A DNA stretch of 38,171 bases, taken from the NCBI GenBank assembly GCA_021842385.1, contig JAKCAE010000003.1, positions 1 through 38,171 of the forward strand, in the 5' to 3' direction. Made by a program: the position numbers and the translations under genes. Positions 30,314-32,292 of this stretch are shown here, piece by piece. The notes under the pieces were generated by a model, which was not told the origin of the DNA, made no database searches, and saw only the letters and a program-made list of their open reading frames with translations. How positions within the stretch are numbered: the first letter of the stretch is position 1; every line of letters begins with the position of its first letter. The DNA comes from a bacterium (lineage in GTDB: Bacteria > Patescibacteriota > Doudnabacteria > UBA920 > VMFF01).

Positions 30314-32104
30314 TTATTGCTTCTTTAGTATCTCTTGTCTAACTTTTTCGGCAAACTTCTTTAAAAGCATGGCGCCAAGGTCTTTTTGGGACCTTGTTCT
30401 AATTGATATTTTTTTAGATTTCATTTCTTTTTCGCCTAGAATTAGCATGTAAGGGGATTTGTTCATCTGTGCTTCACGGATTTTCTTACCAATTGATTCA
30501 TCACGATCATCTAGCTCTAAACGAATGCCAGGAACAAGACTGTTTAGTTCTTTTTCCACAGCCTTGGCATATTTGTTTTGCTTTTTTGATATTGGTAAGA
30601 TCGATACTTGGACAGGGGAAAGCCAAAGCGGGAAAGCTCCGGCAAATTGTTCTATGAGGATGCCCATGAAGCGTTCATAGGAGCCTAGGAGTGCTCTGTG
30701 AATGACAATTGGGGTTTTCTTTGAACCGTCTTTGTCAACATATTCTAAGCCAAATCTTTTTGGCTGCTGAAAATCAAGCTGAATGGTTGCTAGCTGCCAT
30801 TGTCTTCCTAAGGAGTCTTTAATCTTCATGTCAATCTTTGGACCATAGAAAGCGCCGTCTCCTGGATTTAATTGATACTTCCACTTTGCTTTTTTCAAAG
30901 CAGCAGCAAGGGCGTTTTCTGCTTTGTTCCACTCTTCTTTGCTGCCCAGTGCTTTTTCAGGCATGGTTGCAAGATAGACATCCTCAATTTTCATGTTAAA
31001 GATTTTGTATATTTTCTGAGTTCGTTTAAGCAGTTCTGCAACTTCATTAGCAACCTGATCTGGTGTTAGGAAAATATGGCAATCATCCTGAGCAAATGCT
31101 CTGACTCTGGTCATGCCGCCGAGCGCGCCGCTTAATTCGTTTCTAAAGAGCGTATTCATCTCAGCAAGTCTTAAAGGCAGGTCTTTGTAGGAGTAAAGAC
31201 CTTGTTTGAAAAGAAGCATGTGTCCCGGACAATTCATTGGTTTCAAGGCAAAGTCTTTGCCTTCTATTTTGAAAGTAAACATGTCTTCTTTGAAATGCTG
31301 CCAGTGCCCTGATGTTTTCCAGAGTTCAGCATCAAACATTTGCGGAAGTTTTACTTCGCTGTATCCTGGACCATATGATATTTCTCTGACAAACTTTTCC
31401 AGCTCGTTTCTAACAATCATTCCTTTTGGTTGGTAGAAAGGGATTCCCGGAGAAAGCTCATTGAAAAGAAACAAACCAAGCTTTGGACCCAAAACCCTGT
31501 GGTCGCGTTTGGCCAGTTCTTCTTGAAGCTGGATGTGTTTTTCTAACTGCTCCTTAGTTTCAAAAGCCAGACCATAGATTCTTTGCATCTGTGGATTTTT
31601 TTGATCTCCGCGCCAGTATGCGCCTGATGTTTTTTCAAGCTTAAAAGCATCAGTTTTAATTTCTGAAGTATTGTTAACATGTCCGCCGCGGCAGAGGTCA
31701 ACGAATTTACCCGTGTGATATATGGAGACATGGCTTGGTTTTTCTTTTTCTGAACCTTGATCTCCAGTAATGTCTTTAAAAACCGTGGTCCCGTGCTTTT
31801 CAATGTCTGCTACGAGTTCAACTTTAAAAGGTTGATTTTTTTCTTCAAAGAATCTCTTTGCTTCCTTAAAGGTCTTTTCCTCGCGTCTGAATTCAAGTTT
31901 TTGACGAATTAATTCACGCATTCTTTTTTCTAAGCGGTTTAAGTCCTCAGGAGTTAACGCGCGTGGTAATAGGAAGTCGTAATAGAAGCCATGCTCAATT
32001 ACAGGACCAACGCCAAGCTGGGCTTTGGGAAAAGCTTCAAGCACTGCACTTGCCAAGATGTGGGCAAGAGAATGTCTTAAATTGTGTAGTTTTTCGTTTT
32101 GCAT
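30314..32104 (-). CDS. thrS: Threonyl-tRNA synthetase (no N-terminal TGS domain)
   Basis: RHSLAHILASAV, VDLCRGGHVNNT, MNCPGHMLLFKQGLYSYKDLPLRLAEMNTLFRNE, GGMTRVRAFAQDDCHIF, anticodon-binding domain at C-terminus. Confidence 0.97.
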   Translation of the reverse strand: MQNEKLHNLRHSLAHILASAVLEAFPKAQLGVGPVIEHGFYYDFLLPRALTPEDLNRLEKRMRELIRQKLEFRREEKTFKEAKRFFEEKNQPFKVELVADIEKHGTTVFKDITGDQGSEKEKPSHVSIYHTGKFVDLCRGGHVNNTSEIKTDAFKLEKTSGAYWRGDQKNPQMQRIYGLAFETKEQLEKHIQLQEELAKRDHRVLGPKLGLFLFNELSPGIPFYQPKGMIVRNELEKFVREISYGPGYSEVKLPQMFDAELWKTSGHWQHFKEDMFTFKIEGKDFALKPMNCPGHMLLFKQGLYSYKDLPLRLAEMNTLFRNELSGALGGMTRVRAFAQDDCHIFLTPDQVANEVAELLKRTQKIYKIFNMKIEDVYLATMPEKALGSKEEWNKAENALAAALKKAKWKYQLNPGDGAFYGPKIDMKIKDSLGRQWQLATIQLDFQQPKRFGLEYVDKDGSKKTPIVIHRALLGSYERFMGILIEQFAGAFPLWLSPVQVSILPISKKQNKYAKAVEKELNSLVPGIRLELDDRDESIGKKIREAQMNKSPYMLILGEKEMKSKKISIRTRSQKDLGAMLLKKFAEKVRQEILKKQ

Positions 32105-32120
32105 ATTTTTATATGATTAA

Positions 32121-32256
32121 AAGATAAAACCCCGAAGCAAGGACGCAAGGAATTTGCGAACTAGCTTTGGGGTTCAATGTTGAACGGTTCCACCCAAACT
32201 TACTTTGTATTGTTTGAAGCTCTGCAGTTGGTGGCTGCTTCATTGCTTCAAGGACT
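32121..32256 (-). promoter_or_regulatory. T-box leader (compact, ultrashort Stem I type) upstream of thrS
   Basis: Minus strand: TTGAAGC-AATGAAGCAG-CCACCAA-CTGCAGA-GCTTCAA; antiterminator TTTGGG-TGGAACC-GTTCAA-CA-TTGAAC-CCCAAA; competing terminator AACCCC...GGGGTTTTATCTTTT. Confidence 0.85.
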
Positions 32257-32262
32257 GTTGTT

Positions 32263-32292
32263 AGTATATCAGACTTTACAAGTTATATGCAA
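32263..32292 (-). promoter_or_regulatory. Promoter of the thrS leader
   Basis: Minus strand TTGCAT (32287-32292)-18 nt-TATACT (32263-32268). Confidence 0.6.

Follow-up and report, generated by a model that had tools for sequence, protein, structure and literature searches.

A transcriptional T-box riboswitch of minimal architecture probably controls thrS in a Doudnabacteria genome

We analysed a window of 38,171 nucleotides (positions 1 to 38,171 of contig JAKCAE010000003.1, assembly GCA_021842385.1) from a bacterium of the Doudnabacteria, and we consider it very probable that the leader of its threonyl-tRNA synthetase gene, thrS, is a transcriptional T-box riboswitch which is specific for tRNA-Thr(GGU) and controls thrS with a minimal architecture. 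The element lies at 32256-32119 on the minus strand, about 15 nt upstream of thrS, and directly follows an extended -10 promoter (Table 1). Direct support comes from its anatomy, from the covariation of its helices, from the matches of its codon and its T-box bulge to the tRNA, and from the overlap of its two hairpins at the 3′ end.

Stem I of this leader ends in the codon loop and lacks the distal double T-loop module that contacts the tRNA elbow. The sequence is as the original prediction had it, an ultrashort Stem I with a threonine codon in the terminal loop, and the proposed kink-turn (K-turn) with tandem G.A pairs fits the internal loop, whose G and A on both strands are invariant, in sequence, in all nine thrS leaders compared. 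The loop ACC was further expected to track threonine specificity, and the codon does follow the amino acid of the gene: among 7-nt loops, ACC is found in 28/28 thrS leaders and AUC in 5/5 ileS leaders (Fisher p = 4e-6), the consensus of these 33 loops being C-U/C-[codon]-A-A. Loops longer or shorter than 7 nt, some of them assigned by eye from the sequence, hold ACC, ACU or ACG upstream of thrS and AUC upstream of ileS; leaders of other aminoacyl-tRNA synthetase (aaRS) genes hold GUC before valS, GGC or GGA before glyS and GAC before aspS, and representative downstream genes were checked by NCBIfam. Separately, at L124:186-310 of genome G064 (G, C, L and f are our handles for genomes, contigs, loci and families) an ultrashort T-box with the loop ACUAACUAA (perhaps AAC, Asn) precedes a frame of 196 aa for which NCBIfam gave no match.

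The other end of the tRNA is matched as well. The UGGA of the bulge predicts a U at the discriminator position, a point for which a check of tRNA-Thr(GGU) had been suggested; the tRNA-Thr GGU, UGU and CGU of this genome all end in U73-CCA, and U73 is present in every distinct tRNA-Thr(GGU) sequence examined in relatives. The tRNA-Ile of the same genome ends in A-CCA, as the UGGU of its ileS leader predicts, the variable T-box base pairing with the discriminator as A with U73 for threonine and as U with A73 for isoleucine.

The antiterminator competes with the terminator, as had been proposed: the two share the strand CCCCAAA and are mutually exclusive, and they overlap likewise in five relatives (six genomes in total). 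The UGGNACC bulge and the arms of lower helix A1 of the antiterminator first predicted are correct, but its 6-bp top with a 2-nt CA loop is impossible, and the top helix has 5 bp with a 4-nt loop. Given a weak antiterminator (-8.0 kcal/mol), a strong terminator (-22.1 kcal/mol) and a shared strand, the default state would be off. From the U-tract to the start codon of thrS (ATG at 32104) the sequence shows no Shine-Dalgarno-like purine run, and the U-tract terminator together with the lack of a visible ribosome binding site argues for transcriptional control. A translational T-box, as in actinobacterial ileS, with a 3′ hairpin that hides the ribosome binding site, would be in keeping with the ultrashort Stem I forms known to date, which are mostly translational (PMC7583486); however, in all six genomes of families f1 and f5 the 3′ hairpin forms a strong terminator with a U-tract, and with the missing purine run this makes such a switch very improbable here.

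The comparative evidence comes from nine thrS leaders of nine genomes (alignment A1, covering Stem I and the antiterminator), in which 13 of 18 pairs show double-sided changes and 99.4% of cells pair, the covariation being 0.634 against 0.270 +/- 0.031 in shuffles and 0.137-0.171 with partners shifted by one column. Double changes are found in 9/9 counted pairs of Stem I and 4/4 of antiterminator helix A2; five pairs of the lower antiterminator helix are invariant in this alignment and hence uninformative on covariation. A covariance model including the window sequence (R1) scores the element at 104.6 bits. To keep the test from being circular, we derived another model (R2) from ten leaders that do not belong to the bacterial family of the window (alignment A5, with a covariation of 0.670 against 0.278 in shuffles, as strong as that of alignment A1). 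In the window the thrS leader is the sole significant match of R2 (53.6 bits, E = 7.6e-12; runner-up E = 1.2), and in the whole genome it ranks best (E = 1.1e-10); a third R2 match in the genome (C23, 13.5 bits) lies within unrelated sequence and was dropped. Covariation in orthologous thrS leaders and a search with an ultrashort model, two of the checks that had been proposed, thus speak for the original prediction, and they confirm that the predicted T-box-like element is real, beyond chance. Folded singly, the sequence is modestly better than shuffles (z = -2.46, and z = -1.31 without the terminator); the case therefore stands on comparison instead of folding energy.

This comparison also bears on whether the leader is a decayed relic, which has lost Stem II and the pseudoknot and no longer senses tRNA. 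Parts found in relatives are indeed absent from the window leader, but changes in Stem I are compensated between genera (GAAGC/GCUUC, GAAAU/AUUUC, GGGAC/GUCCC), and the loop codon, the bulge, the AAAG of the linker and the terminator overlap are retained in five genomes of the family and in G008; a relic is as improbable as the translational switch. In E. coli, the thrS operator is an anticodon-arm mimic bound by threonyl-tRNA synthetase, and a 7-nt loop on an arm of anticodon shape upstream of thrS could recall it. The loop holds the codon ACC, though, not an anticodon NGU, the same loop of ileS leaders holds AUC, and both the UGGNACC antiterminator and the discriminator match would be left unexplained; since the loop carries codon sense we rejected this model, whose likelihood we put close to nil. 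Equally close to nil, and rejected because its frame is not conserved, is attenuation by a leader peptide translated from a 44-codon open frame (MKQPPTAELQ...) that starts at an ATG in the K-turn, as this frame is shifted in G001, stops after 13 codons in G004, has no ATG in G003 or G008 and contains no run of threonine codons.

A T-box reading of the leader places it between two known kinds. With canonical Firmicutes transcriptional T-boxes (RF00230, glyQS) it shares the GA-motif base of Stem I (AAGC-AAUGA ... GAGCUU), readout of the anticodon by a codon, the UGGN-ACC bulge, the alternation of antiterminator and terminator, and an aaRS gene downstream; unlike in them, its codon is in a terminal and not an internal loop, and the double T-loop of distal Stem I that binds the elbow is missing. 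The actinobacterial ultrashort (class II) ileS T-boxes of M. tuberculosis and N. farcinica have a short Stem I, a K-turn and an apical-loop specifier (PMC7583486, PMC10651847), and the short K-turn Stem I with its specifier in the terminal loop is common to these and to our element; unlike these, it has a terminator, reads threonine, and has neither a Stem II with an S-turn, nor a IIA/B pseudoknot, nor a sequestrator hiding a Shine-Dalgarno sequence, none being visible. K-turn and terminal-loop specifier were thus already known from actinobacterial ileS, and what is new here is that control is transcriptional, that further amino acids are represented and that Stem II is missing.

The absence of Stem II, which the original prediction did not stress, is the most unusual feature, and in this family IIA/B and Stem III are absent too. 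The entire region between the hairpins, in the family of the window and in G008, is a 15-nt linker, which in the window has no space for Stem II and shows neither a IIA/B pseudoknot nor Stem III; in six f1/f5 linkers a search for H-type pseudoknots found none possible, and such pseudoknots were found in relatives. The AAAG of the linker is invariant in alignment A2 and takes the place of the purine string flanking Stem III. Nor is there space upstream for a longer Stem I, as the promoter stands 11 nt away; G002 and G001 have an identical extended -10, also 11 nt 5′ of Stem I. The sites listed by a generic promoter scan do not include this extended -10; transcription would be expected to start near 32256, a few nt 5′ of Stem I. 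In the ileS leader of the same genome, unlike in the thrS leader, a IIA/B-like region accompanies a Stem II that contains AAGUAGAC, so that one genome holds both kinds of ultrashort T-box. The U-tract hairpin of this ileS leader (GCACC/GGUGU) encloses the antiterminator and does not overlap it, and f3 ileS leaders show this arrangement too. In f3, G213, G248 and G337 an H-type pseudoknot of the IIA/B kind follows Stem I, in some together with Stem III; examples of these pseudoknots are ACGC/GCGU with CUCGA/UCGAG in G035 and GCGGC/GCCGU with CUUCG/CGAAG in G037. The helices vary in sequence and keep their pairing, and individual linkers are often no better than shuffles. We discarded the idea that a 7-nt loop goes strictly with a missing Stem II, as f3 ileS leaders possess this loop as well as Stem II.

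Three points weigh against the leader being a T-box of this kind. Transcriptional T-boxes are held to depend on the elbow module, and a truncated Stem I to make Stem II essential (PMC7583486), and the predicted element has neither. The Rfam T-box model RF00230, which expects a long Stem I, gives the element 11.7 bits (gathering cut-off 93), with E = 0.893 in the genome, and an Rfam scan of the window at the gathering threshold returned three tRNAs only and missed the T-box. Finally, the match of bulge and discriminator has an exception in two valS leaders, L068 (G036) and L071 (G023), which have UGGC where the tRNA-Val found is A73.

In the mechanism which we propose for a tRNA-Thr-specific transcriptional T-box, the anticodon of tRNA-Thr would meet the ACC that Stem I exposes in its 7-nt terminal loop, while the linker would be bent back by the K-turn along the tRNA toward the acceptor end. 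The U73-C74-C75-A76 of an uncharged tRNA could then pair with UGGA of the bulge and stabilise the weak antiterminator, allowing readthrough into thrS; with a threonine-charged tRNA the 3′ end could not dock, the stable terminator would form and transcription would stop. Pairing of tRNA-Thr at both ends would be required to rescue the antiterminator. We infer that the leader binds tRNA, senses its charge and suffices without a further element. The codon occupies loop positions equivalent to those of the anticodon in a 7-nt anticodon loop (32-38), which makes a loop-loop complex a plausible source of affinity. We see about an even chance that these roughly 90 nt are a complete T-box, in which two hairpins and a 15-nt linker would read tRNA-Thr at both of its ends within the brief interval that precedes termination, with no help from an elbow module, Stem II, IIA/B or Stem III, and which would draw its affinity from a pre-stacked loop-loop complex like that of two complementary tRNA anticodons.

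A transcriptional, threonine-specific element had been predicted as an unusual minimal form; it does look transcriptional, threonine-specific and minimal, but the ultrashort form is widespread in the order and phylum. In 50 genomes of the order (R1, E <= 0.1), matches occur in 38, and in 36 of these 38 they are upstream of thrS; as to the other two, G034 has Stem I at a contig end and G012 is probably false. The bulge is also present ahead of thrS in G028, G044 and G020, which have no R1 match. Across the phylum, sampled evenly with 384 genomes, 60 genomes match at E <= 0.01, and most of the matches read precede an aaRS gene. When 85,462 species genomes were scanned for the pattern of the Stem I core, 16 matches resulted, 11 of them in Patescibacteria or unnamed metagenome-assembled genomes, either upstream of thrS or (L159, L162) at f2 loci with thrS further downstream; the other five, in other phyla, have neither a downstream T-box bulge nor thrS and were judged to be chance. 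The predicted ultrashort form is thus not unique to this leader: with codons for Thr, Ile, Val, Gly and Asp it extends over the order and a large part of the phylum. RF00230 matches 94 of 290 sampled phylum genomes at E <= 1e-4, including long canonical T-boxes, so T-boxes per se are not new to the phylum; as only 9 of the 290 pass its cut-off, their extent there is probably underestimated. For TBDB, the short-stem model was searched in Actinobacteria and on class I matches with a truncated Stem I (PMC7778990). Among the papers covered, none links T-box riboswitches to Patescibacteria, the Candidate Phyla Radiation (CPR) or Saccharibacteria; this coverage is incomplete and priority is unproven.

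Some relatives vary the bulge, the spacing or the tRNA. The f2 thrS leaders L044, L046, L047, L049, L051, L054-L058, L061, L063, L073 and L075 have the usual Stem I and ACC loop and a bulge ACGGAA[A/U]C (ACGGAAC in L051), not UGGAACC, so that a C is opposite A76 of tRNA-Thr; despite this, UCCA is the 3′ end of those f2 tRNA-Thr sequences that were read. These leaders have a strong overlapping terminator, and several have a hairpin with a conserved UCUAGAG loop between the stems. The distance from the T-box to thrS downstream is about 300-1000 nt at L121 (G213) and the f2 loci, and the intervening stretch sometimes holds a short frame. The tRNA-Thr(GGU), the cognate of this switch, is split at about nt 36/37 by about 130-230 nt in G001:C11:2546-2813, G003:C7:125548-125849, G013:C45, G026:C31 and G047:C77, which suggests putative introns in the anticodon loop.

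Table 1. Features of the thrS leader and associated loci (window positions unless stated).
Feature	Position	Strand	Details
Predicted promoter	32263..32292	-	TTGCAT 32292-32287, 18-nt spacer, extended -10 TGATATACT 32271-32263; basis: sequence
Ultrashort Stem I	32214..32251	-	38 nt; base helix UUGAAGC/GCUUCAA, 32251-32245 with 32220-32214
Stem I distal helix	32238-32235 with 32227-32224	-	GCAG/CUGC
K-turn (GA motif)	32239..32244	-	5′ side AAU-GA-A; partner strand A-GA 32223-32221; three-nt bulge
Stem I terminal loop	32234-32228	-	CCACCAA (C-C-ACC-A-A), 7 nt
Specifier codon	32230..32232	-	ACC (Thr), loop positions 3-5 of 7, then AA
Linker	32199..32213	-	15 nt, ACAATACAAAGTAAG; conserved purines AAAG at 32206-32203
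Antiterminator	32166..32198	-	Helix A1 UUUGGG/CCCAAA, helix A2 GUUCA[ACAU]UGAAC; -8.0 kcal/mol
T-box bulge	32186..32192	-	UGGAACC; UGGA complementary to UCCA 3′ end of tRNA-Thr
Intrinsic terminator	32119..32174	-	AACCCC...GGGGUU 32174-32128, then UUAUCUUUU; U-tract 32127-32119; -22.1 kcal/mol
thrS, threonyl-tRNA synthetase	30314..32104	-	596 aa; NCBIfam TIGR00418, 695 bits, above cut-off
ileS ultrashort T-box, same genome	G000:C3:17395-17260 (L001:1636-1501)	-	Stem I CCUGAU[ACAUCA]AUCAGG, AUC; UGGUACC; U-tract end

The genome comprises 45 contigs with 565 kb in total and is of the Patescibacteria/CPR type, as the CPR-like character first assigned to it implied, and CPR bacteria are reported to be without amino acid synthesis pathways (PMC11665869). 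The view of the field is that a transcriptional T-box can capture tRNA fast enough only with the distal Stem I that binds the elbow, and that a short Stem I requires Stem II in its place (PMC7583486). The element and its family have neither, and still their helices covary, their codons match the genes and their terminators are retained. Should it be functional, the element would define a minimal set of parts for reading both the identity and the charge of a tRNA, and its small size would make it attractive for co-transcriptional and structural studies; it would also mean that CPR bacteria widely control their synthetases by tRNA charge.
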